Assembly (NCBI GenBank): GCA_007125985.1
Contig: SLCE01000085.1
Location: 1 to 33,592, forward strand
Length of the DNA: 33,592 nucleotides
Reading direction: 5' to 3'
From: Ectothiorhodospiraceae bacterium
GTDB lineage: Bacteria > Pseudomonadota > Gammaproteobacteria > Nitrococcales > Aquisalimonadaceae
In this document: in pieces, positions 116 to 18,389 of the stretch
How the letters are laid out: the number at the start of each line of letters is the position of its first letter
Position numbering within the stretch: position 1 is the first letter of the stretch
The notes under the pieces: generated by a model
Told to the model about the DNA's origin: nothing
The model's input: only the letters and a program-made list of their open reading frames with translations
The model's database searches: none
Made by a program: the position numbers and the translations under genes

Positions 116-1257
116 CTGGTCGGCCAGGGATCACGGAATCCGGAAGGACCAGGCCCGGTGATATCGGCATGCCGGTGGGTGCTTTGCTCACGCCCTGCCT
201 CATCGTGGACCTGGACGTGCTGGAACGGAATATTGCGTACCTAGCCCGCCATGCCGCTGAGCGGGGGGTGCGGCTTCGGCCTCACGCCAAGACCCACAAG
301 AGCCCGGATATCGCCATGCTGCAGATGGCGCATGGCGCCGTGGGCGTTTGCTGCCAGAAGGTTAGCGAGGCCGAGGCCATGGTCCGCGGTGGCGTGAACA
401 ATGTGTTGGTATCCAACCAGGTGGTGCAGCCCCGCATGATTGATCGCCTGGCCGCCCTGGCCCGGGAGGCCCGTGTCGGCGTCTGTGTTGATGATGCGGG
501 CAATGTGGATGCGCTCAGTGCCGCTGCGAGTCGCGCAGGCAGTGAAATCGATGTGCTGGTGGAAATAGATGTGGGCGCCGGGCGGTGCGGTGTGCAACCC
601 GGGGCGCAGGCAGTGCACCTGGCGCAACGGGTTGCCGGTGCTCCGGGGCTGCGATTCGCCGGTATTCAGGCGTATCAGGGCAGCGCGCAGCATGTGCGGG
701 AATACGCCCGCCGCAAGGCGCTCATCGACGCCGCCATCCGGGAAACCGAGCGCACGGTTCAACAACTCAATGAAGCCGGTCTCGCCCCTGGGGTGATTAC
801 CGGCAGCGGCACCGGAACCTATGATCTGGAAGGTGCACACACGGTGTTCAACGAGTTGCAATGCGGCTCCTACGTGTTCATGGACGCGGACTACCAGCGG
901 ATTGAAACCGAAGATCACCGCCCCTTCGATGCCTTCGACAACAGCCTATTTCTGTACACCACGGTGATGAGCAAGACGCGCGCCGGGCGGGCGGTATGTG
1001 ATGCCGGCCTCAAGGCGCACAGCGTGGATTCCGGTCTGCCCGCTGTGCATGCGCTGCCAGGTGTCCGCTATATTCAGGCGTCTGACGAACACGGTGTGCT
1101 GGAGGATCCGGACGACGTGCTGCGGCTCGGTGATCAGCTCAGACTGATCCCGGGGCATTGCGATCCGACAGTCAATCTGCATGACTGGCTGGTCGGCATC
1201 CGCAACGGTCATGTCGAATGCCTCTGGCCGGTCGCCGCGCGGGGCGCGGTGTTCTGA
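112..1257 (+). CDS. DSD1-family PLP-dependent enzyme (D-threonine aldolase / D-serine dehydratase-like)
   Basis: A 381-residue fold-type III PLP enzyme related to alanine racemase. The N-terminal barrel starts with TPCLIVDLD, and the RPHAKTHKS motif carries the likely Schiff-base lysine K60. The C-terminus has GHCDPTVN, where H349 and D351 match the H-x-D metal site of D-threonine aldolases (eukaryotic D-serine dehydratases use H-x-C). The expected reaction is metal- and PLP-dependent cleavage or dehydration of a D-3-hydroxy amino acid in the cytoplasm. The exact substrate cannot be read from sequence. The ATG at 112 has an AGGGTG a few bases upstream and overlaps the previous gene's stop. 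An internal ATG at 169 would give a more family-typical N-terminus but has a poorer ribosome site. Its last 86 bp overlap the convergent phosphopantetheinyl transferase gene. Confidence 0.88.
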   Translation: MTGRPGITESGRTRPGDIGMPVGALLTPCLIVDLDVLERNIAYLARHAAERGVRLRPHAKTHKSPDIAMLQMAHGAVGVCCQKVSEAEAMVRGGVNNVLVSNQVVQPRMIDRLAALAREARVGVCVDDAGNVDALSAAASRAGSEIDVLVEIDVGAGRCGVQPGAQAVHLAQRVAGAPGLRFAGIQAYQGSAQHVREYARRKALIDAAIRETERTVQQLNEAGLAPGVITGSGTGTYDLEGAHTVFNELQCGSYVFMDADYQRIETEDHRPFDAFDNSLFLYTTVMSKTRAGRAVCDAGLKAHSVDSGLPAVHALPGVRYIQASDEHGVLEDPDDVLRLGDQLRLIPGHCDPTVNLHDWLVGIRNGHVECLWPVAARGAVF

Positions 1258-2008
1258 AGAACCGCTGCGACAGCTGGTATTCGCCGCCTTCCACGACCAA
1301 GGCGCCGACGTAGCCTTCCGCCGGGTGTAATTCCGTCACGGACCAGGTCACGGCCGATTCCGCTCGATCATCATCCAGGTGCCCTGGAGGGCCGGTGTCC
1401 GCCAGCGCCGGTGCAAGGTCCTGCGGATCATCGCTCAGTCCGCACCCGATCGCCTTCGCATAGGCTTCCTTGCCGGTCCAGACTCGCAGGAAAGTCCGCG
1501 GCCGTTGACCCGGAGGGGCCGCCTTCCACGTCGCCTGCTCCTGGGGCGAGAACCACTGCCTGGCAATGTCGTCTGCCTCCGGAATGTCCCGGATGGCCTC
1601 CAGATCGACACCAATACGACGACCTCGCGTCAGGGCATACAAGGCAAGCCCGTGCGAACGGGAACAGTTGAACCGCAGAGGCGGGTCCGCCGAGGGAGTC
1701 GCGAGCTCCGGCTTGCCCCAGTTCCCGTAACGCAGGCGCAGGAGGCCCGGCTCACCGTCAAGATAGCCGGCAAGCAGCCAGCGAAGCAGGCCTCTGGCAG
1801 CGATGAACCGTCGCTGATCCTGCCTGAAAACAAAGGACTCAGTGCGCCGAAGTTCGTCGGGTGAGAGGCTGCGGGCAAGGTAGGCGATGGGCCATGGCGG
1901 ATGGTCTAGATCGGCAAGCCAGGTATGCACCTCGCCGATGCCCAAGGAGGTTACCGCCGAGGGGCACGGCCCGGTGCCGTGACCGGATTCCGACGGGTTT
2001 TCACTCAC
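1172..2008 (-). CDS. Sfp-type 4'-phosphopantetheinyl transferase
   Basis: 278 residues. It transfers phosphopantetheine from CoA to carrier-protein serines, and the obvious targets are the ACP (S2470) and PCP (S3534) of the adjacent PKS-NRPS. Family motifs are present: GVDLE with D135 and E137 (Mg2+ binding) and WTGKEAYAKAIGCGL with K180 and E181. The usual FNxSHS motif reads FNCSRSH (113-119), so the conserved His is Arg (R117), which is unusual. The start is GTG at 2008, and GTGA overlaps the synthase stop TGA (2005-2007), a strong sign of translational coupling. The last 30 or so residues are Arg-rich, go beyond the normal Sfp end and read antisense through the end of the DSD1-like gene. 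That tail may be non-functional. Confidence 0.93.
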   Translation of the reverse strand: MSENPSESGHGTGPCPSAVTSLGIGEVHTWLADLDHPPWPIAYLARSLSPDELRRTESFVFRQDQRRFIAARGLLRWLLAGYLDGEPGLLRLRYGNWGKPELATPSADPPLRFNCSRSHGLALYALTRGRRIGVDLEAIRDIPEADDIARQWFSPQEQATWKAAPPGQRPRTFLRVWTGKEAYAKAIGCGLSDDPQDLAPALADTGPPGHLDDDRAESAVTWSVTELHPAEGYVGALVVEGGEYQLSQRFFRTPRPARRPARGIRHDRCGCRPASHAD

Positions 2009-5000
2009 GACGCCACCAGGTCTGACTCTTCAAGCCAGGTGGCCAACTGCCGGGCAACTTTCGCCACATGTGGCTGACGCAGTAGCGTGTGGTGGTTCCC
2101 GGGAACCACGTAACGGGCGACACCACCATCCGCGAGCCTGTCCCAACCGAACTCATGCGGGTTCGCCCCTGCGGCGGATTCTTCCGCCTCAAACAGCGTG
2201 ATCCGGCCGGCGTATGGTGCTGGTGTGTAGTCATGCATCGCCCGGATATTGTGGGTGAAAACCTCCAGTTGTCGTCGCAGTTCCGAAAGCTCCAGATCCG
2301 GAGGGGCCAGGCCGGACCGCTGCGCCTGCTCGAGGACGGCGCGGAGCTGCGCCTGCGGATCAAGGCGCTGGAATTTCTCCACTGCGCCGGTTGGCAAGCC
2401 AAGGTGCTCCACGAACTGGGCTAGTGCGTCCCGGGCGTCGTATCGGGTTGCAGCGGACGCAGGTGCATCCAGCATCGCCAGCAGCGAGACGGTCTCGCCG
2501 GATTGTTCGAGTTGGCGGGCCATTTCGAATGCGATGACCCCACCCATGGACCAGCCACCCAACAGATAGGGACCCTGTGGCTGAACGCGCTTCAATTCCG
2601 CGATATAGCGCGCAGCCATGTCTTCGATACGCCGGTCAGGGGCGCCGTCGACCAATCCCGCCGCCTGCAATCCGTAGACAGGACGGTCCGCGCCGAGTAG
2701 ATGTGCCAGTTCCACATAGCAGTACACGGTTCCCGTGACCGCATGGATCAGGAATAACGGCTGCCGGTCGCCTTGCGAATGAATGGTGACCATGGGAGAG
2801 ACGGGTGCGTCTGACGCCTTTCGCAGCATGCAGGCGAGTTGCTCGATGGTGCGGCCCTGAATCAGGCTGGAGACAGGGATATCCCGTGAGAATGCCCGCT
2901 GGATCCGGGCAATCACCCGCATGGCCATCAGGGAATGGCCGCCCAGTGCGAAGAAGTCATCTGTCACGCCGATGTTGCGGCCGGGGAAGAACGTTTCCCA
3001 GATGCGCAGCAATTGGAGTTCCACTGCATCACGCGGCGCGATGCTGGGGTTTATCCGCTCGCGGGCTGTGTCCACGGTCAGCCGGGCCCGATCCACTTTC
3101 CCGCCTGCCGCACGCGGCAGGGCATCCAGCAACGTGATGGTGGATGGCACCATCTGAGCGGGAAGCCGTGCCGCCAGGTACTCCCGAAGATTACCGGCGG
3201 TGGCAGGCGCCTCCGTTACCACGAATGCCTGCAGCTGAAGTTCGCCGTCTCCGGCACACTGGGGGATAACGGCGGCCTCCCGCACGGCCGGATGGCGAGC
3301 CAGTAATGCCTCGATTTCCTCCGGCTCCACGCGGCGCCCCCGGATCTTCACCTGACGGTCGGTGCGCCCCAGAAAATCGAGCGTGCCGTCCGGCCGCCAG
3401 CGGGCAAGATCTCCGGTCCGGTACATCCGCTGTCCAGCCACAAACGGATCCGGGACGAACCGTTCCATCGTCAGTTCCGGCTGGTTGCGATAACCATGGG
3501 CCAGACCGGCGCCGCCGAGATACAGCTCACCGGGAGCACCCACAGGTTTTGGCTGAAGCTCCTCATCCAGCACGTAGGCGCGTGCGTTTGCGATGGGCCG
3601 CCCGATGGGCACGCGCGCCGTATCATCGTCGTCCTCGCAAGCCCAGTGCGTGGCATCGATACCTGCCTCGGCGGGACCGTACAAATGATGCAGGGCCGCG
3701 GGGAGGCGCGCGCGGCACCGGCGCTGCAACCCGGCCGATAGCAGCTCACCGCCGCAGAACACACGTTTGAGGCATCGGCAGTCGTCGATGCCGGGCAGTT
3801 CGAGCAGCACCTCCAGCAACGCGGGCACGACCTGCAACGTGGTCACCTGTTGCTCCTTGATCACCTGCAGCAGTTCTGCGCCGTCGTGCTCGACACCTGG
3901 CGGCGGCAGAACCAGTCGGGCGCCGGTCGACAATGGCCCAAACAGCTCCCAGATGGCGGGATCGAATCCCAGCGGGGTGCGCTGCAGCACCGCATCCTCC
4001 TTCGTTAGCGGGAAAGCCTGTTGCCGCCAGCGCACCTGGTTACAGATCGCGCGGTGCGGGACCATGACGCCCTTGGGCAAGCCGGTGGTGCCAGAGGTGT
4101 AGATGATGTAGGCAAGATCGTCAGGCACGGTAACGCCGGAAGGCCTGTCGTCAGGTTCGCCGGCGATCAGCGCCCGGTCGGCGTCGAGGTCCACCACGAT
4201 GGCATCGTGCGCAGCCATGCCGTCCGGTAGCGGCTGCCGGGTGAGCAGAATTTGCGCTCCCGCGTCCGCAATTAGTCCGCCCAGGCGTGCGGCCGGCTCC
4301 AACGGATCCAGAGGCAGGTAGGCACCGCCGGCCTTGATCACCCCCAGGGCCGCGATCACGGTCTCCGGCGACCGTGGGATCCAGACGCCAACAACGACGC
4401 CCGGCTCGACGCCGAGTTTGCGCAGGCGACGGGCGATCTGATTGGCGCGCCGGTCCAGTTCCCGATAGCTGACCCGCGTGTCGCCGAAGACCACGGCCGG
4501 GGCGTCCGGCGAGCGGTCCACCTGGGCCTCGATCAGACGATGGAGGCAGGTGTCATCGCCCAGATCAGCGGTGGTGTCATTCCACTGGATGAGGACCTGG
4601 TCCCGCTCTGGTCCGGAGTACAACGGCAGCCGGGACAGGGGCTGCTCCGGGTCGGCCACGGCGGCCTCCAGCAGGTTCCGCAGATGCGCGATCATCCAGT
4701 CCATGGTGGCGACGTCGAAGCGATCCGCGTTGTATTCCAGCGTGCCGCTGATCCGCTCACCGTCGTCCAGCAGCAGCATCAGCTCGGTCGCCGCCGTTCC
4801 GCTCTCGACGTCCAGCGGCTGCAGGTCAAGGCCCGCCACCCGCAGCTCTGGAACCCGTGCGTTGTGAAGCACGAGCATTGCCTGGAACAGGGGGTTCCGG
4901 CCGGCATCCCGCTCGGGCTGTAGTGCTTCGACGACGCGATCAAATGGAACATCCTGATGCTCAAATGCCTGAAGCGTGGTTCGTTTCACCTGCTGGAGTA

Positions 5001-8000
5001 GCCCGCGGAAGCTTGGTTTACCGGACAGATCCGAGCGCAGGACCAGGGTGTTCATGAAGCAGCCGACCACGGCATCGCTCCCGCGCTGCGCCCGGGAAGA
5101 GGCGGCTGTGGCCACACAGATGTCTTCATTCCCGAAGTATCGGTGCAGTAGCGTCTGGTACGCGGCAAGCAGCGTCATGAACAGCGTGACGCCTTCGCGA
5201 CGGCTGAATGCCCGAAGTGCATCGGAGAGTTCAGCGGAGAGCGCGAACCAACGATGGCCGCCGCGCATATCGCCGGCCCCGGGTGACGCCTGCGTTGCCG
5301 GAAGCCCCAGGCCGGCCGGCGCGTCGGCAAGCTGGCGTTTCCAGTAGGCGAGTTGGGTGTCGATCATCGCCTCGTCCCACTGCGCCTGCTGCTGGATGTG
5401 CTCCACGTAACGCGACGGTGGAGCTGGGAGCGGTGACGACCGCTTGCTGGAAAATGCGTCGTACAGCGCCGCCAACTCGCGCACGAGCAGATTCATTGCC
5501 CAGGCGTCGGCGGCGATGTGGTGCACGATCAGAAGGATGACGTGCTCTTCTTCGGTCAGCCGGAACAGCGTGACGCGCATCAGAGGCCCCTGGCCCAGAT
5601 CGAATGGCCGCTGGATCTCCTCAGTGGTGAGCCGGCCAAGTTCGATCTCCCGTTCCGCTGCCGGCACAAGGGCCAGATCCACCAGCGGCAAGGTGGCTGG
5701 CGGGGGCGGTGCGAATTGCTGGAGCGGGGCTCCGTCGACTTCACGGATGGTCGCGCGGAGCATTTCGTGGCGACGCAGGAGCTCCGACAGGCTTTGCTCC
5801 AGCGCAGCCACGTCCAGCATGCCGGACAGGCGGGTTGCCACGGCAATGTTGTAAGCGGCCGTCCCCGGGTTCAGCCGGTCAAGGTACCAGAAGCGCTGCT
5901 GCTCGAAAGACAGTGGATATTCCTCGGTCTGCGCTGTCGGCGCGGCCGGTACGGCGGCTTGTTCGGCATCGTTGGTCCTGGCGGCGGCGGGGGCGTCGAA
6001 CGCCAGCTGCTCCAGCAGTCTCTCCGCCAGTTCCGCACTACTGGTTCCCTGCAGGATGGCAACCACCGGCACCTTGATGCCGAGGTCCACCTTGACGGCC
6101 GCGCCCAGTTCCACAGCCATCAGCGAATCGAAACCAAGCTCCGTGAACGGGCGATCCGGATCGATCTTCTGCGGGGTCGTGCCCAGCACCCGCGCGACCT
6201 TGTGCACGAGGTAGTCGGTCAGAAGAGCGCTCCGCTCCGGAGGTGCCGCGCCCCGCAGCATGGCCAGCGGCGAGTCCGGCGAGTTGCCGGCCTGCTCTTG
6301 GGATTCGGGGCTGTCCGCAGCCACCAATGCCTCGAACCGCCGGGATCCGGCAGCCAGCGGATTGAACTCCGTCCACATCCGCCAGTCCATGCCGGCGGCA
6401 ATCACATGGCCGAAATCGTGGCGCAGCAACTGATCCAGTGTGTCCAGCGCCTGTGTGGCCCGGAACTGCCGGAAGCCGGCGCGATCCAGGTACTGTGCAA
6501 GCTCGTCGTGACGGGAGACGTAGCCGACATCCGCCAGTGCACCCCAGGCGATGGTCAGTGCTGGATGGCCCTGCGCCCGGCGATGCGCCGCCAAGGCATC
6601 CAGAAAGGCATTGGCCGCCGCGTAGTTGCCCTGCATGGGATGACCCAGGACTGCGGCGATGGAGGAGAATAGGACGAAGAAGTCCAGCGGGTCGCTCCGG
6701 GTCAGCCGGTGCAGATTCCAGGCGCCGGCCACTTTGGGGGCCAGCACACGGTTGAACCGCTGCTGATTCAGGCGCACCAGGACGTCGTCATCCAACACCA
6801 TGGCCGCGTGAATCACTCCCTTGAGCGGTGGCAGTTCCTGACGAATATGCTCGAGTGTGCGCCGCACGTCCGTCTCATCAGACACATCGCCCCGGATCAC
6901 GCTCACCCGGCAGGGCAACGCCCGCAGGGTCTCGAGCGCAGCCTCGTTGTCCTGAGGGACGCCTGAACGGCTCATGAGAACGAGGCTCCCGGCACCCTGG
7001 CGAGCCAGCCACTCCGCAACGGTCAGCCCGAAACCGCCGAGCCCACCGGTGATCAGGTACGTGCCGCCCTCATGGACCGGGGGCGTGTCCTGGCGCGAAT
7101 GCACGGGATACGTCTGCTCGTCGATGGTCAGCACCACCTTGCCGATATGCCGCGCCTGGGCCATTAGACGGAACCCTTGCTCCGCCTCGGCGAGATCGAA
7201 GGTGGTGACAGGAACCGGCTGCAGTGAACCGTCCCCAATTTGTCGCGCAACGTGCTCCAGCAGGCGGGTGGCAAGCGTCGGCCGATCCAGCGCCAGCGGG
7301 ATCAGGTCAACGGCGTGGAACGAAAGATTGCGCTGGAACGGTAGCAGCCCCACCTGGGCGTCGCCGTAGATATCCCGCTTGCCCAGTTCGATGAAGCGGC
7401 CATAGGGGCGCAGTACGGCCAGCCCCTTCAGCATGGCTTCACCGGACAGTGCGTTCAGGACCACATCCACGCCTTCGCCGTCCGTGTCACGCAGCACTTC
7501 GTCGGCAAACGCAAGCGAGCGCGAATCCATGACGTGCTCGATGCCGAGCTCGCGCAGGTAGGCGCGCTTCTCCGGCGTCCCGGCGGTGGCGAAGATCTCC
7601 GCGCCGACGCGTTGGCAGAGCTGGATGGCGGCCAACCCCACCGCGCCGGTGGCGGATTGGATCAGCACACGCTCCCCCGGGGCGATCCGGGCCACGTGAT
7701 TGAGCGCATATTCTGCCGTCACGAAACCGTTCAGCACCGAGGCGGCCTCCGCGAAAGACAGGCGTGCCGGCTTGGCGACGGTCAGATGCTCGCGGGCAAT
7801 CACTCGTGCGCCGTGTGCGGCTGCGGCCAGGGTCATGACCGCGTCTCCCGGCCGGAAGCGCGTCACGCCCTCGCCGCAGGCGAGCACGACGCCGGCGCAT
7901 TCGATGCCCAGGCCTTGTGGGTCGGGGTCGTGCTGGTAGGCGGCGGGCGGAAGCATATCCAGCGCCTGGAGCACGTCGCGGAAATTGATACCGGACGCGT

Positions 8001-11000
8001 GGACCCGGATGGCCAGTTCACCCGGTCCTGGCTCGGCCACCGCCGTTTCGCGCAACAGGAGGCTTTCGATCGCTCCGGGCGCGCCCGCCTCCAGGCGGAA
8101 CCCACCCGTTTCGGTGGAGATCGGGCGGATTGTCTCGGGCTGAGCGCGCTCGGCGAGCGCGACGCGGCGCAGCCGGCGCACAAAGCGCGCCCGGCCGCGC
8201 AGGGCCATCTCCTCTTCTCCGTCGTTGCCGGACAGTTCCGCGGCAAGGGTTTCCGCCTCCTCCTCAGAAGGGGTAGGGCCGAGATCGATCAAGCGGCAGT
8301 GGGACGTGTCGTGCTCGCTCATCAGCACGCGCCCGAGACCCCACAAGGGTGATTGCGTGACGTGTGGTGCGGCATCGTACCCGTCAACGGCTTGTGCGCC
8401 GGCGGTCACCAGACACAGTTCGCCGATTGGGTTGCCCGACGTCTCCTGGGCCTGCATCAGCGCAAGCACACTGCCGCAGCCGAAGCGCTGGGCATCCATG
8501 AGGGCGGCCGCATCCATGTCCTCATTGGTCGCAGCGGCTACACTCCATGCGTGGAGCACGCCGTTAACGGTGTCGTCGCGTAATGCATCCAGCAGGCGTG
8601 CATAGGCGCCAGTGTCCAGCGGCGGGATGGTGAAGCTGCCGTCCGCGTGCCGCTGGTAGGTGTCGCCGGCCCGCACCGGCGTGCAGCGATCACCCCTGGC
8701 CTGCAACGCCTCGGTCACCCGGTCTGCTTGGCCAACCGAATCGGTGAACACCAGCCAGTGCCGTGGGGAGCCGGACACGGGGACCGACAATGACGTGTGC
8801 ACGGCGGACGTTGCCTGCGCAAGGAGTACGGTCTGCAGTCTTCGATCGTCTGTCGTATCGGCCAACAAGCCGGTCACGTCCTTGAAGCCGTCGGCCTCAA
8901 GCAATGCGCCCCACTGGCGCGGTTCCAGCATGGGGCCGCCCGCCCGCAGGTTGACGTCCGTGTAACGCCACCAGCCCTCCAGCAGTCCGAACACCAGGTT
9001 GAGCCAGCTGGACCGGCGCGTGAGTTCCAGCATGGCCAGGAGCCCGTTCTCTGCGAGCAGGTGATGCACATGGCTCAGCGTGGTGCGGAGATCCGCGGTG
9101 ACATGGAGCACGTTGGCGGCGATGACCAGATCGAACGTGTGGGGTTTGAAGCCCTGTGCTGCCGGGTCGGTCTCGATGTCCAGGGTCGCGAAGCGGATGC
9201 CCGGGTGGTCGGCAAAGCGTGTCCGTGCCTCCTCCAGGAAGTGGGGGGAGACATCGGTAAAGGTGTACTCGGCGGAATCCGGCAGCAACGGGAGAATCGT
9301 GCCGGTGGCGGCGCCCGTGCCCGCGCCAATCTCCAGCACCCGCACGGGTTCGTCACCATCGGCGCCATCGGTGGCGTTGGCAACGGCCTCGGCAAGCAAC
9401 TGGTGGTAGGTCCGGCAGGGGGGGCTGTTGGTGTAGAACTGCGCCAGCAGTTCCAGTGAATCCTCGGTCAGCAGCACCTCCCGGGCGTCTGTCTCGCCGC
9501 GGAGGATGGCGGCGAGGTGCGTGCCGCCCCGGCGGAGCAGTTCGGCCTCGGCGGCATACTGCGGTTCCGCCGCAATGAGCTCGTCCAGTTTCCGGTGCAG
9601 CGTGGCATGATCCCGCGGGATCGCCTGCAAGGTGTCAGTCGTGCCCTGGGGTGACTCCCGGAGCAAGGCCAGCAGGGCAGCGAAAAGTCGCCGATGGCTG
9701 GGCACCACCCCCAGTGAATCCGCAACGGTCTCGGCGGGCAGTTCCAGGTCGCGGACAGGAATCCACCCCATCTCGTCCAGGGCGGCGAGCGTGTATCCCA
9801 GGGTCACGCGATTCACCCAGGGTTCCACGGTGTCCAGGTACCGGGCCACATCCGGTGTGTCTTCCGGCGTGACGGTGTCGGCCGCCACCGCAGCGGCGAT
9901 GTCAGCGACGGGGCGCAGACTGCGGGCGTTGTTGTTCCCGGCGGAAGCCTCTTCCCAGCGCCATTCATACAGCCAGTCATCGATGCCGGCCTGATCGGAG
10001 GGTTGATCCTCTTCCAGCACCCGCAGGCGCAGCCCCTCCAGGACAACGGCGGCTTCGCCGTTCTCATCAATCAGCCATGCATCGCCTTCCATGTCGTCCA
10101 CCCGCGCGCCTTCGCCATGCCGGATCACGACATGGGCCCAGAAATGTGCCCCAGGGCTATGGCGAAACACGAGGCGCCGGATGGATACCGGGAAAAAGAC
10201 CGCATCGGTCTGTGTCTCGGCGCCAGTGCGGGTACCGAGGGCGCCGAAGAGCTGAATCGTGCCGTCCAGCAGGGCAGGGTGGATCCGGTAACCGTCCACC
10301 GGGCGTTCCACGCCCGGCGGGAACGCAATACGGGCTAGCGCGCCGTCGGGGCCGAGCCAGATCTCCTGCAGGGTACGAAACGCGGCACCGAAGCGGTAGC
10401 TGCGTTGCTCCAGGAAGTCGTAATGCTCAGCCACAGGAAACGGCGTCGTGCACCGCTCGCGCAATCCCTGCAGGTCCGGTGCAGCTGCATCGCCTGCGTT
10501 ATACGGGGCGAGTCTCGCGGTGGTATGAAGGCTCCATGTAGCGCCGTCGTCCGGTGGGCTGCTGTGTATCTCCACCACGGAATCGCGTGCCTGGTAGTGG
10601 AGTTGCACCACGTCCTGGCCCGGTTGGCTGAGAAACAGCAATTTGCGGAACTGCACATCCTCCAGGCGAACCGGTATCTCGCCCCACAGTTCCCGCCCCG
10701 CCGCGAACGCCATTTCCAGGTAACCGGCCCCCGGGAAGAGGATGGTGCCATGGATCACGTGTGCATCCAGGTACCCGCTCGCCGGGGCGTCCAGGCTTAC
10801 TTCCCAGGTAGGCTGGGCGGAAGGAAGGCGGCGGCCGAGCAATGGATGACCGGTATCGACACCCGCAGGCCGCGTCCGCTGCGGCGTCGGTTCCTCTCCG
10901 GTGTCATACCAGTAGCGCTCCCGCTGCCACGGATAAGGCGGCAGCGTGACGCAGTTTCCGACGGGATACAGGCTGGACCAGTTCAGGGGCCGACCGCGCA

Positions 11001-13533
11001 CGTGCAGGGCGGCCAGGGTCCGGAGCAAGCACTGGCGCTCGTCCTCCTCGCGCCGCAGGCTGGGCAGTACCGTCGCGGATTCTCCCTGCTCGGCAAGATT
11101 CTCCGTGAGGGCCCCGGCCAGCACCGGGTGGGGGCCGAGTTCGATGAACAACTCGCATTCGTCTCTGATAAGCCGGTTCGCGGCGTCGGCGAACAGCACG
11201 GGTTGGCGGACGTTGCGCCACCAATAGGCGGCGTCGACGCGTGCGTCATCCACCCAGTCACCGGTGGCCGTAGACACCATCGGAATCTCCGGTGGGTGGG
11301 GAGACAAGGCCTGGAGAACGTGCAGGAATTCGTCCCGTATCGCCTCCATCTGCGGTCCGTGATACGGAACGTCGACGGGAAGAAAACGCGCGAAGCGCTG
11401 CTCCGCCGTGAGCGCTTCGGCAATCTGCTGCAGTGCGTCTTCCTCACCGGAGAGGGTGACCGACTCCGGCGCATTGACCGCGGCCAGGGACACGGTGTGT
11501 TCATGGCCGCGGATCAGGCGCCGGGCCGCGTCGGGCGATATCCCGGCAGCGAGCATCCGCCCGGTGCCGCTGGTGCGATGCTGCAGCCGGCCACGGTGGA
11601 AGGCCAGAAGCACCGCGTCCGGCAGCGGGAGGGCACCCGAGACACACGCTGCGGCCATTTCACCGGAGCTGTGGCCGACAACGGCATCCGGAATGACGCC
11701 CCAGGACCGCCAGAGGGCGGCGAGCGCGAACTGAATGGCGAAGTTCGCCACATGCGCCCGGTCTGCACGTGCGATCCGGGATGTTTCCTCGTCCAGCGAT
11801 AATTCCTCCAGCAGAGACCAGTCGGCCAACGGCCGCAGCAAGGCGTCCACCTCCTCCAGGCTCCGCCGGAATACCGGCTCGTCCTCCATCAGCTGCCGCC
11901 CCATGCCCCACCACTGCGGCCCCATGCCGGGAAACACGAAAGTCAGCCGGGGAATGTGCCCCTTGCGTGCATGTCCCGTGACGTAGGCGGCGCTTTTTTC
12001 TCCGTCCAGGAAGGCGTCTAGGCTTTCAATGGCCTCCTCTGGTGAGCGGGCCACCACTGCCAACCGCTCGGCATGGTGGCTACGGCGCACGACAGCGGTG
12101 TAGCACAGATCGTGCAGGTTCAGGGCGCTGCCTCCCTGGAGCAACGCGCGATAGCGACGCGCCGATTCCAGCAGCGCGTCCGGGGTATGCGCCGACAGGG
12201 TCAGTACCTGTTCACGGTTCCCGTCGATGGACGGGCGCTTAACGGGGGGCGGCGCCTCCAGCACCACATGCGCATTGGCGCCGCCGAAGCCGAATGAATT
12301 GACGCCGGCCATGGCGCGGCCTTCCGTGTCCGGCCAGGGTTCCAGTTGTGTGGGGACACGCAAGCGGAGCGCGTCGAACGGAATTGCGGGGTTCGGTTCC
12401 GAGAAGTGCAGGTTCGGAGGGATTTGCCGATGTTCCAGCGCCAGTGTCGCCTTGATCAGGCCCGCCATGCCGGCGGCTGCTTCCAGGTGACCCAGATTGG
12501 TCTTTACCGAACCGAGCAGGCACCGGGCATCGTCAGCGCGACCCTCACCCAGCACCCGGCCAATGGCCTCCGCCTCCACCGGGTCACCCACCGGTGTCCC
12601 GGTGCCATGGGCCTCGACATACTGGATTTCTGTTGATGCCACGCCCGCATCCCGGAGCGCCTGCCGCAGCATCGCTGCCTGGGCGGTGGCACTTGGCAGA
12701 CTGAGACCCGTGGTCCGCCCGTCCTGGTTCACCGCACTGCCGCGAATGACTGCATGGATCGGGTCCCCGTCCGCCCGTGCCTGCTCCAAGGGTTTGAGAA
12801 CAACGGCGCCGGCGCCCTCGCTGCGGACATAGCCATCGGCGTCGGTGTCAAAAGCGCGGCAGCGCCCCGTGGGCGACAGCATGGAGGCCTTGCAGAACCC
12901 CATGGTCACTTCCGGTGCCAGAAGCACGCCGACGCCGCCAGCGATGGCCAGGGCGCACTCGCCGGCGTCGAGACTGCGGCAGGCAAGGTGGACTGCCGTC
13001 AGCGAGGAGGAGCAGGCGGTATCGACGGAGAAGCTCGGCCCGCGCAAATCCAGCAGATAGGAGACCCGGTTCGCGGAGATGCACGCTGCGGTTCCAGCGT
13101 TCACATGGGCGTCAATCCGGTGTCGATTATGCGGCAGCACCTGGATGTCGACGTAGTCATGGGTGGAGACGCCGACGAAGACGCCGGTGCTGCTGCCCGC
13201 GAGCTTGTCCGGGGCCAGTCCGCCGTCCTCCAGGGCCTCCCACACCACCTCGAGCAGCAGGCGCTGTTGCGGATCCATGCGGCGCGCCTCGCGCGGCGCG
13301 ATGCCGAAGAAATCGGCGTCGAAACCATCCACGTGATCGAGAAAGCCGCCCCAGCGCGTGTAGATTTTCCCGGGGCTGGCTGGGTCTGAATCGAACAGCT
13401 CTGTCAGGTTAAACCGGTCCGGGGGCAGTTCGGTGACGGCATCGACACCGTCACACAACAACCTCCAGAATGCGCCCGGAGAGTCGGCCCCCCCGGGAAA
13501 TCGGCAACCGATACCAACAATCGCAATGTCCAT
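2005..13533 (-). CDS. Hybrid fully reducing C-methylating PKS-NRPS with terminal thioesterase
   Basis: 3842 residues in one frame. Approximate domains: KS 1-425 (DTACSSS, C174; EAHGTGT, H309; H349); AT 530-830 (GHSSGE, S622; substrate loop VPYHGPQM at 723-729); DH 895-1170 (HxxxGxxxxP from H925; D1090xxxQ); C-methyltransferase about 1370-1540 (LEIGAGTG at 1400); structural KR half about 1590-1790; ER 1815-2140 (SATGAVG near 1960); KR 2150-2390 (TGGLGGFG; K2267, Y2304; LDD at 2247-2249, a B-type sign); ACP 2435-2510 (GFDSL, S2470); C 2538-2970 (HHIAADAW, H2672); A 2990-3480 (YTSGTTGLPKG; YRTGD; K3479); PCP 3500-3570 (GGHSL, S3534); TE 3590-3840 (GWSMGG, S3662; D3689; H3814). The inferred chemistry is decarboxylative chain building with alpha-methylation and full reduction, amide coupling to one amino acid, and release by hydrolysis or cyclisation. 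With no loading module, it either takes a starter in trans or acts iteratively. Start: ATG 9 nt after GGAG. The exported protein gene lies 61 bp upstream and the PPTase overlaps the stop. The product is unknown. Confidence 0.96.
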   Translation of the reverse strand: MDIAIVGIGCRFPGGADSPGAFWRLLCDGVDAVTELPPDRFNLTELFDSDPASPGKIYTRWGGFLDHVDGFDADFFGIAPREARRMDPQQRLLLEVVWEALEDGGLAPDKLAGSSTGVFVGVSTHDYVDIQVLPHNRHRIDAHVNAGTAACISANRVSYLLDLRGPSFSVDTACSSSLTAVHLACRSLDAGECALAIAGGVGVLLAPEVTMGFCKASMLSPTGRCRAFDTDADGYVRSEGAGAVVLKPLEQARADGDPIHAVIRGSAVNQDGRTTGLSLPSATAQAAMLRQALRDAGVASTEIQYVEAHGTGTPVGDPVEAEAIGRVLGEGRADDARCLLGSVKTNLGHLEAAAGMAGLIKATLALEHRQIPPNLHFSEPNPAIPFDALRLRVPTQLEPWPDTEGRAMAGVNSFGFGGANAHVVLEAPPPVKRPSIDGNREQVLTLSAHTPDALLESARRYRALLQGGSALNLHDLCYTAVVRRSHHAERLAVVARSPEEAIESLDAFLDGEKSAAYVTGHARKGHIPRLTFVFPGMGPQWWGMGRQLMEDEPVFRRSLEEVDALLRPLADWSLLEELSLDEETSRIARADRAHVANFAIQFALAALWRSWGVIPDAVVGHSSGEMAAACVSGALPLPDAVLLAFHRGRLQHRTSGTGRMLAAGISPDAARRLIRGHEHTVSLAAVNAPESVTLSGEEDALQQIAEALTAEQRFARFLPVDVPYHGPQMEAIRDEFLHVLQALSPHPPEIPMVSTATGDWVDDARVDAAYWWRNVRQPVLFADAANRLIRDECELFIELGPHPVLAGALTENLAEQGESATVLPSLRREEDERQCLLRTLAALHVRGRPLNWSSLYPVGNCVTLPPYPWQRERYWYDTGEEPTPQRTRPAGVDTGHPLLGRRLPSAQPTWEVSLDAPASGYLDAHVIHGTILFPGAGYLEMAFAAGRELWGEIPVRLEDVQFRKLLFLSQPGQDVVQLHYQARDSVVEIHSSPPDDGATWSLHTTARLAPYNAGDAAAPDLQGLRERCTTPFPVAEHYDFLEQRSYRFGAAFRTLQEIWLGPDGALARIAFPPGVERPVDGYRIHPALLDGTIQLFGALGTRTGAETQTDAVFFPVSIRRLVFRHSPGAHFWAHVVIRHGEGARVDDMEGDAWLIDENGEAAVVLEGLRLRVLEEDQPSDQAGIDDWLYEWRWEEASAGNNNARSLRPVADIAAAVAADTVTPEDTPDVARYLDTVEPWVNRVTLGYTLAALDEMGWIPVRDLELPAETVADSLGVVPSHRRLFAALLALLRESPQGTTDTLQAIPRDHATLHRKLDELIAAEPQYAAEAELLRRGGTHLAAILRGETDAREVLLTEDSLELLAQFYTNSPPCRTYHQLLAEAVANATDGADGDEPVRVLEIGAGTGAATGTILPLLPDSAEYTFTDVSPHFLEEARTRFADHPGIRFATLDIETDPAAQGFKPHTFDLVIAANVLHVTADLRTTLSHVHHLLAENGLLAMLELTRRSSWLNLVFGLLEGWWRYTDVNLRAGGPMLEPRQWGALLEADGFKDVTGLLADTTDDRRLQTVLLAQATSAVHTSLSVPVSGSPRHWLVFTDSVGQADRVTEALQARGDRCTPVRAGDTYQRHADGSFTIPPLDTGAYARLLDALRDDTVNGVLHAWSVAAATNEDMDAAALMDAQRFGCGSVLALMQAQETSGNPIGELCLVTAGAQAVDGYDAAPHVTQSPLWGLGRVLMSEHDTSHCRLIDLGPTPSEEEAETLAAELSGNDGEEEMALRGRARFVRRLRRVALAERAQPETIRPISTETGGFRLEAGAPGAIESLLLRETAVAEPGPGELAIRVHASGINFRDVLQALDMLPPAAYQHDPDPQGLGIECAGVVLACGEGVTRFRPGDAVMTLAAAAHGARVIAREHLTVAKPARLSFAEAASVLNGFVTAEYALNHVARIAPGERVLIQSATGAVGLAAIQLCQRVGAEIFATAGTPEKRAYLRELGIEHVMDSRSLAFADEVLRDTDGEGVDVVLNALSGEAMLKGLAVLRPYGRFIELGKRDIYGDAQVGLLPFQRNLSFHAVDLIPLALDRPTLATRLLEHVARQIGDGSLQPVPVTTFDLAEAEQGFRLMAQARHIGKVVLTIDEQTYPVHSRQDTPPVHEGGTYLITGGLGGFGLTVAEWLARQGAGSLVLMSRSGVPQDNEAALETLRALPCRVSVIRGDVSDETDVRRTLEHIRQELPPLKGVIHAAMVLDDDVLVRLNQQRFNRVLAPKVAGAWNLHRLTRSDPLDFFVLFSSIAAVLGHPMQGNYAAANAFLDALAAHRRAQGHPALTIAWGALADVGYVSRHDELAQYLDRAGFRQFRATQALDTLDQLLRHDFGHVIAAGMDWRMWTEFNPLAAGSRRFEALVAADSPESQEQAGNSPDSPLAMLRGAAPPERSALLTDYLVHKVARVLGTTPQKIDPDRPFTELGFDSLMAVELGAAVKVDLGIKVPVVAILQGTSSAELAERLLEQLAFDAPAAARTNDAEQAAVPAAPTAQTEEYPLSFEQQRFWYLDRLNPGTAAYNIAVATRLSGMLDVAALEQSLSELLRRHEMLRATIREVDGAPLQQFAPPPPATLPLVDLALVPAAEREIELGRLTTEEIQRPFDLGQGPLMRVTLFRLTEEEHVILLIVHHIAADAWAMNLLVRELAALYDAFSSKRSSPLPAPPSRYVEHIQQQAQWDEAMIDTQLAYWKRQLADAPAGLGLPATQASPGAGDMRGGHRWFALSAELSDALRAFSRREGVTLFMTLLAAYQTLLHRYFGNEDICVATAASSRAQRGSDAVVGCFMNTLVLRSDLSGKPSFRGLLQQVKRTTLQAFEHQDVPFDRVVEALQPERDAGRNPLFQAMLVLHNARVPELRVAGLDLQPLDVESGTAATELMLLLDDGERISGTLEYNADRFDVATMDWMIAHLRNLLEAAVADPEQPLSRLPLYSGPERDQVLIQWNDTTADLGDDTCLHRLIEAQVDRSPDAPAVVFGDTRVSYRELDRRANQIARRLRKLGVEPGVVVGVWIPRSPETVIAALGVIKAGGAYLPLDPLEPAARLGGLIADAGAQILLTRQPLPDGMAAHDAIVVDLDADRALIAGEPDDRPSGVTVPDDLAYIIYTSGTTGLPKGVMVPHRAICNQVRWRQQAFPLTKEDAVLQRTPLGFDPAIWELFGPLSTGARLVLPPPGVEHDGAELLQVIKEQQVTTLQVVPALLEVLLELPGIDDCRCLKRVFCGGELLSAGLQRRCRARLPAALHHLYGPAEAGIDATHWACEDDDDTARVPIGRPIANARAYVLDEELQPKPVGAPGELYLGGAGLAHGYRNQPELTMERFVPDPFVAGQRMYRTGDLARWRPDGTLDFLGRTDRQVKIRGRRVEPEEIEALLARHPAVREAAVIPQCAGDGELQLQAFVVTEAPATAGNLREYLAARLPAQMVPSTITLLDALPRAAGGKVDRARLTVDTARERINPSIAPRDAVELQLLRIWETFFPGRNIGVTDDFFALGGHSLMAMRVIARIQRAFSRDIPVSSLIQGRTIEQLACMLRKASDAPVSPMVTIHSQGDRQPLFLIHAVTGTVYCYVELAHLLGADRPVYGLQAAGLVDGAPDRRIEDMAARYIAELKRVQPQGPYLLGGWSMGGVIAFEMARQLEQSGETVSLLAMLDAPASAATRYDARDALAQFVEHLGLPTGAVEKFQRLDPQAQLRAVLEQAQRSGLAPPDLELSELRRQLEVFTHNIRAMHDYTPAPYAGRITLFEAEESAAGANPHEFGWDRLADGGVARYVVPGNHHTLLRQPHVAKVARQLATWLEESDLVAS

Positions 13534-13594
13534 GGCCGAAACTCCAACCTGGGGCTGCGATCGCGGGGCGACCGTGACCGCAGCCCGAGTGGCA

Positions 13595-14149
13595 TCAGCG
13601 GCACTTGTATTGGAGGGTATAGGTCAGATCCAGGCCTTCCTGGCTGACAATGCCATGACCGGTGGCATGGAGCGTATTGCTTGGTTGACGGATGACCCGG
13701 ACAGTGGATTCCGTGACCGGTGCTGCTCCGCCTATCCCCTTGCCGGAAAGCCCCAGTGTGACGGACTGTGCACCTGGGCCGCATCCGTCGATGGTTCCGG
13801 TGAATTCCATGATTCCCCCGAATGTCACATCACCGTTGCGCTTAACGGTGCCGGTCACCTCTTGAACAAATGTTCCTTCCAATGTTCCTTGAACGGTGCC
13901 GGTGATTGTCCTCGCCTGATGCGAGTTGCCGCCGGTCTCTCGGAGCACTTCCACCTCAATGTGAGTGATCATTCCGGTGCCGCTCCCCTCAAGCATCGGT
14001 CCCGCATGTAGCGGGGGGCCAGCATGGGATGGGGGCCCGGCCTGTGACGATGGAGTGGCGGCGATAGGTGCTGAGACCAGCAGCGCTGACAGGGCAAGAG
14101 TCGTGGCGAGTTGAGCCAGGCCTGATGAGTTAAGGCGATTGCGAATCAT
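13595..14149 (-). CDS. Exported beta-strand-rich protein, possibly AOC-barrel/DUF3224-like
   Basis: 184 residues from the ATG at 14149. I prefer this start because GGGGAGGG lies just upstream and it gives a clean signal peptide: basic MIRNRLNS, a hydrophobic ALSALLVSAPIAA core, and likely cleavage after the Ala run near residue 31. An in-frame ATG at 14182 would add 11 residues. After a short low-complexity stretch with three AGPP/AGPM-His units, the mature part is a run of Gly/Thr-rich alternating strands (GTVQGTLEGTF, EFTGTIDG, LTYTLQY). Their spacing resembles the small beta-barrel DUF3224/allene-oxide-cyclase-like proteins. This is pattern similarity judged by eye, not a proven homology. 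Two cysteines (DGC and the C-terminal YKC) could form a disulfide. It lies 61 bp upstream of the synthase on the same strand, so cotranscription is likely. Its function is unknown. Confidence 0.75.
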   Translation of the reverse strand: MIRNRLNSSGLAQLATTLALSALLVSAPIAATPSSQAGPPSHAGPPLHAGPMLEGSGTGMITHIEVEVLRETGGNSHQARTITGTVQGTLEGTFVQEVTGTVKRNGDVTFGGIMEFTGTIDGCGPGAQSVTLGLSGKGIGGAAPVTESTVRVIRQPSNTLHATGHGIVSQEGLDLTYTLQYKCR

Positions 14150-14609
14150 CTGAGGTCCCTCCCCGGGGTTATCGACCGGCACAGCGCTGGGTAGGGCGTC
14201 CGGTCAGTGCCTCATGGACATGAAGTCGGTTTGCTTCGTGGTAGGGCGCGAAAGACCAGCGTTCAATCAAGGACCATTTGCCGATTTTATTCTGAGTGGA
14301 TGCAGTGCGCGCCGGATCGGGTCTTGACAAATTATTGCTAGTATGTGCGCAGGTCGACTTCACCACTTAACGGTAGACTGCTTCCTTGCCCTGTCAAGCT
14401 GGCGTTAAGCGCCACCATGCATCGGCGAAATTGCTTCGGCCACTGCGGTGGATCGGTGTGATGTGAGGTGCTTGGGGGCTGGGCTGCGGCACCGACGGGG
14501 GCTTCGCAGGAATGATTTCTTTGATCGCTGCCGGAAAAGACGGGGATGATGATCCCCCGAAAAATGCTTCCCCGCAGGCGACGGCGCCTGCGGGGAAGCA
14601 TTCAGGGCA
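14150..14609. other. Non-coding stretch between exported-protein gene and dctP
   Basis: About 460 bases without a convincing gene. It must hold the promoter of the - strand biosynthetic operon, but I could not pick a good -35/-10 pair on that strand. The right end holds the dctP terminator (separate entry). Short open frames here run antisense through the terminator stem or have no ribosome site. Confidence 0.5.
14560..14601 (-). terminator. Rho-independent terminator of dctP
   Basis: A perfect 17-bp inverted repeat (14564-14580 and 14585-14601) with an ACGG loop. On the - strand it is followed by a run of five T (the last one shared with the stem) starting 9 bases after the dctP stop codon. 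There is no T-run on the + side, so it acts on - strand transcription and separates dctP from the biosynthetic operon. Confidence 0.9.
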
Positions 14610-15770
14610 TCAAAGCCCGTAGCTGGTTACGTCGATCTTGGAGAAGATTTCATCCCAGTAGAGTTGGACCAACTCGTCTCGTGTTTCCACGTCCTCCACC
14701 AGGTCCATCCACTTGGCCAGCACCTCGGTGAAGGCCTCGGTCATTTCTGCTCCATTCTGAACGCCGTGACGCTGAGCGTACCGTTCCGGAACGGCCTCCA
14801 GGTCCGCTTCCTGGAACGCGCGTGTCACCTCCTGGAATGATGGATCCGGTTCATGCATGGTGATCTCGTCGGAGCGCTCATCAAGCTGCCGTAACGCTTC
14901 CCTGTGCTCCGACAGGTACTGCCAAGCGATTTCCGCGTTAATGGCCGCCGCGCCATACAGAACGGATTCACGTTCCTGCTCGGTGAGACGCTGCCAGGTT
15001 TCTCGGTTGATGGTTGTTCCAACGCCGCCAAACGTGCTGCCCGGCACACCCATCGTGATATCGGTGACCACGTCGATGAACATGAAGTTGAGTAGATCCG
15101 GTAGGTTGTGCGCGGTGCAGTCCACAACCCCCTGACTCAGCGCTTCAAACGTTTCGTTGACTGGAATGGACAGCGGAGTGCCGCCAAATTCCGTCACCCA
15201 GCGCGACCACTGTGGGCCACCGACACGAATGCGCCTACCCTCAAATTCTTCCTGGCTGCGGACTGGCCTGGTGCAAAACAGCCCGTATGGTGGGCTGCCG
15301 GCCATACCCAGATAGACCTGGTTTTCCTTATGGTGCTCGTCCATGCACGCGTCACAGTGGTTCATGACGAAGTACGAAACGGCACCCGTATAGGCAAAGG
15401 TCGACTGCTTCGGCGTGGCCTCCTGAATGGCCAGGCTCATGGTCAGTTCCGTGAACATGGTGGTCGTGGGGAACGTCGATGGAAAGTAGGCCACCAGCAC
15501 GGTCCCCAGGTCGGCAATGCCGTCGCGAATGCCATCCGGTGTCTCCATGAAGCTGAGCAGCGATGCAATAAAGCCCCGAACCTGTATCTCGCCTTCGGAA
15601 TGGGATTCAACAGCCTTGATGAACTCGTCGACCGCGATTTCACCCATTGAGCCGGGGGGGGTGCCCGATGCAAAGCGCAGCTGAGTGGCATCTGCGGCGG
15701 CCCCAAAACACAAGCCTGCGGCCAACAGGCCGGACAACAAGGGGGTTTTCGCGTTTGCGATATTGATCAT
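14610..15770 (-). CDS. dctP: TRAP transporter substrate-binding protein, DctP family
   Basis: 386 residues, periplasmic. The signal peptide (about residues 1-28) has a hydrophobic LLSGLLAAGLCFGAAADA stretch. The mature start TQLRFASGTPPGS and the later GRRIRVGGPQ, GGTPLSIPVNETFEALSQGVVDC and WQYLSEHREALRQLDE segments are typical of DctP-type binding proteins for carboxylates or related anions. GGAGGAG lies 5 nt before the ATG. No DctQ or DctM membrane partner is next to it, so it is an orphan binding protein in this window. The fused TRAP permease at 23.1-25.1 kb is of the TAXI type and has its own binding protein. Codons 36-38 contain an eight-base C tract. The ligand cannot be predicted from the sequence. 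Confidence 0.88.
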   Translation of the reverse strand: MINIANAKTPLLSGLLAAGLCFGAAADATQLRFASGTPPGSMGEIAVDEFIKAVESHSEGEIQVRGFIASLLSFMETPDGIRDGIADLGTVLVAYFPSTFPTTTMFTELTMSLAIQEATPKQSTFAYTGAVSYFVMNHCDACMDEHHKENQVYLGMAGSPPYGLFCTRPVRSQEEFEGRRIRVGGPQWSRWVTEFGGTPLSIPVNETFEALSQGVVDCTAHNLPDLLNFMFIDVVTDITMGVPGSTFGGVGTTINRETWQRLTEQERESVLYGAAAINAEIAWQYLSEHREALRQLDERSDEITMHEPDPSFQEVTRAFQEADLEAVPERYAQRHGVQNGAEMTEAFTEVLAKWMDLVEDVETRDELVQLYWDEIFSKIDVTSYGL

Positions 15771-16474: not shown

Positions 16475-16869
16475 AATGCACCTCCCGACGCGATTTCTGT
16501 CCGCGACTCTACAGTCTGTCAGGTGGCCGGCTCCTTCCAGCCCTGCTCTGGCAAAGTATAGACGGGAGCGTTGAGCAGGCGTTTCCGCTTTACCTCCCAG
16601 GGCGATGTCTTGGTGAATGCGGTGCTTTGCACTTGCGTTGAAAGGATTGCCTCGCCGGCATAAGGCTTCCCCTTGAAGTAATAAAATTAGTAATTCTTAT
16701 ATGGGAAAAGTCTAATGGCGAAATTGCCAGCAGCTCCACATGAACTAAAACTCACCAATAGGGGGATTCATACATAAAGGAGAGCAGTCCGGCATCCGGG
16801 GTCGTGAAGAATGGACAGCGGGTTGTCCTGCAGAAGAATCAGGATTCCACGGAGCACGGACTAGACGCT
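16475..16869. other. Leader region upstream of ctaB
   Basis: About 395 bases between the divergent membrane-protein gene and ctaB. Most is ordinary GC-rich sequence, but 16673-16710 is strikingly AT-rich. A possible promoter there is TTGAAG (16673-16678) with TATATG (16698-16703), although the spacing of 19 is long. A second weak candidate is TTGAAA (16638-16643) with TAAGGC 17 bases on. A good AAGGAG at 16777-16782 has no in-frame start at normal distance. No gene is seen. Confidence 0.4.
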
Positions 16870-17772
16870 ATGACCTATCTCCAATCGGCTGTAACGGTTG
16901 CCACCTGGCGTGACTATGTCCAGTTGTGTAAACCGCGAGTAGTTTTGTTGATGCTGCTGACGGCTATCGTCGGTATGTGTCTGGCTGCCCCCGGTGTCCC
17001 CCCGCTTGATCTTGTGGCTGCCGGCATCGTGGGCATTGCACTTGTGGCCGGCTCTGCCGCTGTGGTCAACCACGTGGCGGACGCCCACGTGGATCAGACC
17101 ATGAAAAGAACCCAGGCGCGGCCAGTGGCGCAGGGGCGAATTGCTCCGCCGCAGGCCCTGCTCTTCTCCGGGCTGCTCGGCCTGACCGGTATGCTGGTGC
17201 TGACCCTGTTGGTCAATCCACTCACGGCTTTACTCAATCTGATTTCCTGGGTCGGATACGGTCTCATCTACACGCTTTATCTGAAGCATCGGACCCCGCA
17301 GAACATCGTGATCGGGGGGCTGTTCGGAGCGGCGCCGCCGTTGTTTGGGTGGACGGCTATCACTGGCACGATCAGTGTGGAACCCCTGTTGCTGGTGCTG
17401 ATTATCTTCGTCTGGACGCCGCCGCATTTCTGGGCCCTGGCGTTGGCGAGGTTGGATGATTACCGGGATGCCGGTGTTCCGATGCTGCCGATTACTCACG
17501 GTGTGATCTACACACGCCGGAGCGTGATGGCCTATACCGCGCTGTTGGCAGTGGTCAGCGCACTGCCCGTGGTCGTCGGCATGGCCGGGCTGGTCTATCT
17601 GGGGGTGGTATTGGTGTTGAATCTGCGCTTCCTGTACTGGGCCCGGAAAGTGCTGGTTGGGGATTGCGTCGCACCGATGAAAACGTTCCGGTATTCCATT
17701 TTTTATCTCGGGGTGCTGTTTCTGGCACTCCTGCTGGACCATTACCTGATTCTTGTCACGTCGTTGGTATGA
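16870..17772 (+). CDS. ctaB: Protoheme IX farnesyltransferase (heme O synthase)
   Basis: 300 residues. This polytopic inner-membrane prenyltransferase of the UbiA superfamily adds a farnesyl group to heme b to make heme O, the precursor of the heme A needed by the oxidase encoded downstream. The first Asp-rich motif is NHVADAHVDQTMKRTQARPV and the second is DDYRDAGVPMLPITHG. CKPRVVLLMLLTAIVG near the N-terminus is also typical. Eight or nine hydrophobic helices follow. I chose ATG 16870 because the protein then starts close to the conserved WRDYVQLCKPR. A GTG at 16804 in the same frame would add 22 residues, and neither start has an ideal ribosome site. No heme A synthase (ctaA) lies in the window. 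Confidence 0.92.
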   Translation: MTYLQSAVTVATWRDYVQLCKPRVVLLMLLTAIVGMCLAAPGVPPLDLVAAGIVGIALVAGSAAVVNHVADAHVDQTMKRTQARPVAQGRIAPPQALLFSGLLGLTGMLVLTLLVNPLTALLNLISWVGYGLIYTLYLKHRTPQNIVIGGLFGAAPPLFGWTAITGTISVEPLLLVLIIFVWTPPHFWALALARLDDYRDAGVPMLPITHGVIYTRRSVMAYTALLAVVSALPVVVGMAGLVYLGVVLVLNLRFLYWARKVLVGDCVAPMKTFRYSIFYLGVLFLALLLDHYLILVTSLV

Positions 17773-17819
17773 AGGGGGGGTTGATGATTCGAGGGCCATA
17801 ACAGATTGGGGGAAAGCTG

Positions 17820-18389
17820 ATGAAAATGAAGCGCTATTTCTATATTGGTGATGATCTTGACGATCTCGAAAGACTGGAAGAGGAGTTGGAAGCAGCAGGG
17901 GTGGTCACACCCCAGATTCACGTGCTGACGCTGGACGACAGTGGCGCGGAGCATCATCAAAACCTGCATCAGGTCACTGCCCTGATGAAGAAGGATATTG
18001 TGCACTCTGCGCTCATTGGCGCCGCCGTCGGTGCCTGCGCCTTCGTGTTGGTCCTGGTGGTGGCTTATCTGGCTGGTTGGACGGATACCCCCGCCGGTTG
18101 GCTGCCGTTCGTTTTCCTCGCTGTTGTACTGCTGGGCTTCTTTACCTGGGAAGGCGGCCTGCGCGGCATTGAATCGCCGAACGTGCACTTCGAACGCTTC
18201 CAGAAAGTCCTGGAGGAGGGTAAGCACGTGTTCTTCGTCGATTTGGAACCGGGCCAGGAAGCCGTACTGCGGAAAGCGCTCGAAAACCATCCAAGCCTGC
18301 AGTCCGCCGGCGTTGGACGTGCCGCTCCGCACTGGGTGGTGTTCTGGCAGTATCGCGCGAAACGTTTCTTCACGCAGACGTTTCCATAG
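17820..18389 (+). CDS. Unknown two-helix membrane protein in the oxidase cluster
   Basis: 189 residues, ATG preceded by GGGGGAAAG. The N-terminal 60 residues are soluble and acidic (YIGDDLDDLERLEEELEAAG), followed by two helices at about 61-85 and 93-110. A soluble C-terminal part includes VHFERFQKVLEEGKHVFFVDLEPGQE and ends in a basic RAKRFFTQTFP. The layout of a small alpha/beta segment, a helical hairpin and a second alpha/beta segment resembles general-stress or DUF1269-like membrane proteins, but I cannot assign a family. Its place between ctaB and coxII suggests a link with oxidase assembly or regulation. That is inference from position only. Confidence 0.7.
   Translation: MKMKRYFYIGDDLDDLERLEEELEAAGVVTPQIHVLTLDDSGAEHHQNLHQVTALMKKDIVHSALIGAAVGACAFVLVLVVAYLAGWTDTPAGWLPFVFLAVVLLGFFTWEGGLRGIESPNVHFERFQKVLEEGKHVFFVDLEPGQEAVLRKALENHPSLQSAGVGRAAPHWVVFWQYRAKRFFTQTFP

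Follow-up and report, generated by a model that had tools for sequence, protein, structure and literature searches.

A three-gene cassette with a putatively iterative highly reducing PKS-NRPS and a secreted barrel protein in a gammaproteobacterial family and Nitriliruptoria

Genes at the locus

The window, i.e. the whole stretch of DNA that was analysed (33,592 nucleotides, contig SLCE01000085.1 of an Ectothiorhodospiraceae bacterium), carries genes for a small secreted protein, a PKS-NRPS megasynthase of 3842 aa and an Sfp-type phosphopantetheinyl transferase (PPTase), all on the minus strand (Table 1). The PPTase gene lies 3' of the megasynthase, its start overlapping the PKS stop by 4 nt, and the PKS start is preceded, at a distance of 61 nt, by the gene of the small protein. 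The initial annotation had proposed a single enzyme with its PPTase; the PPTase was indeed found at the 3' end, but the secreted barrel, which the annotation did not contain, adds another conserved gene to the cassette. No Rfam match was obtained in positions 13400-14800, and neither a tRNA in the window nor a sigma-70-like promoter was found. A terminator-like site separates the barrel gene from the DctP gene upstream.

Beyond the PPTase, positions 112-1257 encode a homologue of the 3-hydroxy-D-aspartate aldolase BhcC, whose score of 541 bits does not reach the equivalog cut-off (690); its gene is convergent with that of the PPTase and is not shared by the homologous loci. On the other side, pieces of a TRAP transporter (DctP, DctM) and an NMT1-like binding protein (14610-15770 and 23117-26261) flank a terminal oxidase cluster (16804-22686), which starts with a UbiA-type prenyltransferase and a 189-aa protein without Pfam match and continues with a COX2-cytochrome c fusion, COX1 and two COX3-like genes.

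Table 1. Features of the three-gene locus. Positions refer to the window and residues to the megasynthase; residue spans are those of the Pfam matches, except for psiKR, and are approximate for PCP.
Feature	Position	Strand	Residues	Evidence
Sfp-type PPTase	1172..2008	-		PF01648 E 3.9e-19; HetI-like
PKS-NRPS megasynthase (ORF)	2005..13533	-		
Thioesterase (TE)	2038..2763	-	3591-3832	PF00975 E 9.8e-33; S3662/D3689/H3814
PCP	2824..3036	-	about 3500-3570	GGHSL; second PP-binding stretch
Adenylation domain (A)	3097..4530	-	3002-3479	PF00501 E 2.8e-93; nine-residue code DPWQFGLID
Condensation domain (C)	4597..5928	-	2536-2979	PF00668 E 1.1e-92; HHIAAD
ACP	6016..6213	-	2441-2506	PF00550; GFDSL
Catalytic KR	6532..7065	-	2157-2334	PF08659 E 3.4e-71; LDD motif, S-Y-K residues
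ER	7123..8085	-	1836-2135	PF08240, PF00107, PF13602; TIGR02824 E 1.3e-55; nucleotide motif intact
Structural (non-catalytic) psiKR	8104..8796	-	1580-1810	stretch without Pfam match between MT and ER
C-methyltransferase (cMT, MT)	8875..9363	-	1399-1499	PF08242 E 1.4e-21; LEIGAGTG; H1477/E1503 invariant in 12 rows
DH	9997..10848	-	896-1179	PF14765, PF21089; HxxxGxxxxP and DxxxQ
AT	10993..11943	-	531-847	PF00698 E 1e-74; GHSSG
KS	12256..13530	-	2-377	PF00109 E 4.9e-97; active site DTACSS, HGTGT, NLGH
Small secreted protein, 184 aa	13598..14149	-		apparent signal peptide (by eye) and 136-aa DUF3224-like domain

Domain architecture and active sites

Pfam and NCBIfam models gave the order KS-AT-DH-cMT-psiKR-ER-KR-ACP-C-A-PCP-TE in a single chain, with very low Pfam E-values for all assigned domains. 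The KS starts at residue 2 and no loading module is present. When homologues, both full and partial, were aligned, the catalytic residues tested were present and invariant in all homologues covering them (KS C174/H309/H349, AT S622/H725, DH H925/D1090, KR S2291/Y2304/K2267, ACP S2470, C HHxxxD, A K3154/K3479 and PCP S3534, as well as the MT and TE residues of Table 1), and MT motif I is intact in the window. The psiKR region was among the least conserved PKS parts. The coordinates, domain order, intact motifs and missing loading module of the initial annotation were thus confirmed, with the gene placed on the minus strand.

Search for partner modules

The genome of the window (3.24 Mb, 98.9% complete, 248 contigs) was searched family by family, and neither a further type I PKS KS nor a second condensation domain was found in it. 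Other strong KS matches were FabF-size frames of 435-440 aa, and the remainder were weak and partial matches in frames of 397-472 aa. As far as the assembly goes there are therefore no partner modules, so that the module would be used repeatedly or for one extension only. Since it is the sole type I PKS and holds the sole C domain of the genome, the megasynthase does not appear to be one assembly-line step and most likely works iteratively. With a full MT/KR/DH/ER set and no other source of a long chain, iteration is also the more economical reading. A longer assembly line with its remaining modules elsewhere could have been hidden by the fragmentation of the assembly into 248 contigs, but is highly improbable in a genome of this completeness without another type I PKS KS or C domain, for an enzyme that runs from a KS at residue 2 to a terminal TE, and with homologues whose flanks have no PKS or NRPS gene in common. 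Iterative action had already been proposed in the initial annotation, with further PKS or NRPS modules nearby named as evidence against it; none was found in the genome or common to the homologue flanks, and the sole PKS together with the KS tree supports this probable mode of action.

KS phylogeny

The KS tree contained 52 rows, KSs of polycyclic tetramate macrolactam (PTM) systems not being among them. The KSs of the megasynthase family formed a 100/100 clade, which joined (96/93) a group of fungal PsoA and LovB and stand-alone Pseudomonadota HR-PKSs of ~2,500 aa, apart from the CurL, Streptomyces modular, trans-AT, MAS and Pks13 KSs. In the phylogeny that the initial annotation had proposed as a check, the KS thus groups with iterative HR-PKSs; the internal order of the group it joins was poorly resolved (83/70).

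The KS scored higher against bacterial CurL (506 bits) and Pks13 (442) than against the KSs of fungal PsoA (374) and LovB (369); a fungal origin therefore does not follow from the fungal-like layout. Acquisition of the enzyme from a fungus would agree with the domain order and with the KS clade adjoining LovB and PsoA, but it is very unlikely: the fungal KSs stand beside the bacterial stand-alone HR-PKSs and not within the megasynthase family, the scores favour CurL and Pks13, a TE occupies the place of R, the reading frame is uninterrupted and the homologues are bacterial.

Comparison with known systems

Fungal HR-PKS-NRPSs (PsoA, and LovB for the PKS half) share the order KS-AT-DH-MT-psiKR-ER-KR-ACP-C-A-T with the enzyme and have a neighbouring KS clade. 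They release their products by an R or Dieckmann domain, and their ER is often inactive and supplied in trans. In contrast, the ER in the window looks intact, and Pfam detected no fungal-type C-terminal R/DKC release domain in the megasynthase, which ends in a bacterial TE. The stand-alone Pseudomonadota HR-PKSs have a similar PKS order, but lack the NRPS half and the TE. The best PDB sequence match was mycocerosic acid synthase (MAS, 9d2z), likewise a bacterial single module, which is iterative and fully reducing; unlike the enzyme in the window, it has no cMT and no NRPS, its KS is placed elsewhere in the tree and its AT motif is of methylmalonyl type.

Single-module iterative PKS-NRPSs are already known in bacteria. 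Those of PTM type have the layout KS-AT-DH-KR-ACP-C-A-PCP-TE, are widespread in metagenomes and are largely uncharacterised (PMC10308959); the initial annotation, according to which bacteria usually split such modules, overlooked these PTM/HSAF-type enzymes. The systems for HSAF, ikarugamycin and frontalamide resemble the enzyme in the window in being bacterial, monomodular and iterative (as inferred here), with one NRPS module and a C-terminal TE. An ordinary member of this group, which combines two polyketide chains with ornithine into a tetramate, would follow the same monomodular logic with a TE, and large uncharacterised monomodular KS clades exist there (PMC10308959). We nevertheless consider membership unlikely. 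The window's enzyme has an intact cMT and ER, both missing from the PTM layout; its A code is glutamine-like, whereas PTM systems use ornithine; and the tailoring oxidoreductase or hydroxylase genes of PTM systems were found neither beside it nor in common among the homologous loci. The secreted barrel is a further difference, as we know of none in PTM systems. Candidate PTM reference sequences turned out to be NRPSs and were discarded.

No near-identical characterised cluster was found in the collections searched (MIBiG not among them), in agreement with the initial annotation, which had recognised no known cluster. A literature search returned no paper on PKSs of Aquisalimonas.

Distribution and horizontal transfer

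The cassette is one of salt-lake bacteria. Homologues were found in 4 genomes of the gammaproteobacterial family to which the window belongs, and in 9 of the 66 Nitriliruptoria genomes (Actinomycetota) searched. Those of the window's family (G002, an Ectothiorhodospiraceae MAG, JAFIFU010000008.1; G006; G013) are mostly 71-79% identical. In G013 (L013, L060) the KS-to-MT part is ~76% identical to the window, the A domain 58% and the TE 46%, which suggests that the NRPS end has changed faster or been exchanged. In five of the nine Nitriliruptoria with the enzyme, the ORF is complete or nearly so (about 3,835-4,030 aa). In the genome scan, an Egibacter MAG (Actinomycetota, Nitriliruptoria) gave a full-length homologue of 57% identity, which adjoins a large regulator-like protein with WD repeats (read by eye) in DNA of 74% GC.

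In the tree of the PKS part, three gammaproteobacterial copies grouped together (100/100) within a branch (100/99) that also contained two actinobacterial copies, and actinobacterial monophyly was rejected (AU p 2e-5). This nesting indicates that the locus moved horizontally. Together with the GC content of the operon (65-67%, against mostly 57-63% across the remaining contig), it is best read as a transfer into the window's lineage, with Nitriliruptoria or a relative as the source.

Outside the window's family and Nitriliruptoria, no full-length relative was found in 370 genomes of the class (KR-to-A query) or in 396 Actinomycetota genomes (ER-to-C-to-A query); these searches were samples with two candidates scored per genome, and the true range of homologues may therefore be wider. 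In the plasmid collection, no record covered 80% of the MT-to-TE query; its top Streptomyces matches belonged to modular assembly lines and were rejected as relatives, as were gammaproteobacterial matches in G600 and G716, which are terminal modules after other PKS modules. An actinobacterial match of 45% identity over ER-to-C with one in-frame TGA (L154, G1094:C82:48649-51237) is possibly a more distant relative. One genome of the window's family also has a multi-ORF HR-PKS and NRPS cluster (L061-L062, G005:C28:78000-117999), in which several modules bear a methyltransferase and a docking domain of TubC type is present.

Conservation of the cassette

Secreted protein, megasynthase and PPTase form the unit that is shared between loci. 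The PPTase gene lies directly 3' of the megasynthase in most of them, the Egibacter copy without an adjacent PPTase being an exception. In the window and in G002, G006, G549, G512, G552 and G547, the barrel gene immediately precedes that of the megasynthase, and in G468 a barrel was identified by profile match at the contig end upstream of the megasynthase. Across 14 loci, no further gene was common to the flanks except for one weak match between two loci. Barrel and megasynthase co-occur (Fisher p 1.6e-4 within the order and 2.6e-4 within the Nitriliruptoria class, the species not being independent).

Two Nitriliruptoria genomes have a barrel without a full megasynthase. One contains an orphan homologue of 41% identity with no megasynthase nearby (G545, L105:10165-10734, G545:C4). 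In the other, the PPTase is accompanied by no more than a PCP-TE remnant and a partial barrel (G495, L106, G495:C3:110000-125000), and this locus looks like a decayed cassette. The orphan copy, and the absence of a barrel both upstream of the megasynthase and from the genome in G544, would fit an unrelated neighbour of the megasynthase; we regard this as improbable, as the barrel gene is upstream in eight loci of two phyla although the other flanks differ.

The secreted barrel protein

The mature domain of the small protein is 46-80% identical in five homologues from both phyla, with two invariant Cys. AlphaFold2, run on six trimmed sequences, predicted an eight-stranded barrel with a pLDDT of 86.8; with the signal peptide and three close homologues the pLDDT was 42.6. 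The best match of the model among solved structures was 2q03 (TM 0.84, E 1.3e-6, Z 17.7), the next rows having Z of 12.9 and lower, and the top matches 2q03 and 2ooj are uncharacterised DUF3224-type proteins. A profile search also ranked 2q03 first, with a weak E of 0.05, and Pfam PF11528 matched one of the six barrel members (E 0.019). We found no match to the barrel in the plasmid collection and, by literature search, no paper on DUF3224.

Below DUF3224, at Z of about 9-12, matches comprised allene oxide cyclases, dirigent proteins, the pericyclases AbyU, PyrI4, PloI4 and AbmU, and outer-membrane barrels; the pericyclases aligned to the barrel at Z 9-11 with 4-11% identity in the structural alignments. 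As these lower matches are mixed with outer-membrane barrels, the assignment is sound at the DUF3224 level only and implies no function. The protein is predicted to be a DUF3224-like barrel of the allene-oxide-cyclase type. It shares its fold with 2q03 and 2ooj, but is apparently secreted. AbyU, PyrI4 and PloI4 have a similar fold and also belong to polyketide pathways; unlike them, the window's barrel appears to be secreted. In polyketide pathways, AbyU-type barrels are established as [4+2] cyclases (PMC11268479), which provides a lead for a cyclase role of the barrel.

Predicted chemistry and proposed pathway

At the site of the MAS 'ASH' motif, the alignment reads PYHG in the window's AT and AYHS in PsoA. 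An AT without ASH and resembling PsoA makes malonyl-CoA the likelier substrate than methylmalonyl-CoA, which fits methyl groups derived from SAM. The A code, read by motif anchors, is DPWQFGLID(K) in the window and most homologues, with changes F/L/I, L/V and D/E. It differs at one of nine sites from the nearest published code, DAWQFGLIDK for glutamine in tyrocidine synthetase (PMC2866473), and from this glutamine is most likely the amino acid selected.

In the proposed pathway, the PPTase would arm ACP and PCP, and the single HR-PKS module would iterate malonyl condensation with optional C-methylation from SAM, while KR, DH and ER would reduce the chain to varying degrees. Once the chain is complete, the C domain would couple it to a single amino acid, most likely glutamine; what the TE releases would be an N-acyl amino acid, either as such or cyclised. 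With its intact triad the TE could release N-acyl glutamine; attack of the side-chain amide at TE release, giving an acylamino-glutarimide, is speculation. The secreted DUF3224-like barrel would meet the product outside the cytoplasm and might bind, carry or cyclise it, any such role being a guess.

Overall, we consider it probable that the locus is a horizontally mobile cassette of three genes, in which an iterative HR-PKS chain is joined to one amino acid and released by the TE, and the barrel acts outside the cytoplasm. A narrower version, in which the barrel acts as a cyclase outside the cytoplasm and completes the PKS-NRPS product, so that two enzymes and a PPTase spread between Nitriliruptoria and Gammaproteobacteria would yield a cyclised acyl-glutamine scaffold, is tentative and in our view rather doubtful.

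Significance

With three genes in about 13 kb, and with chain building and release all in one megasynthase, the cassette is small enough for whole cloning and expression. It would provide a bacterial, intron-free system for testing the programming of methylation, reduction and chain length by iterative HR synthases, so far studied mostly with fungal enzymes. With the conserved secreted barrel, a DUF3224-like protein gains a role that can be tested, and the position of the KS, beside those of fungal and stand-alone bacterial HR-PKSs, bears on the origin of the fungal HR-PKSs.
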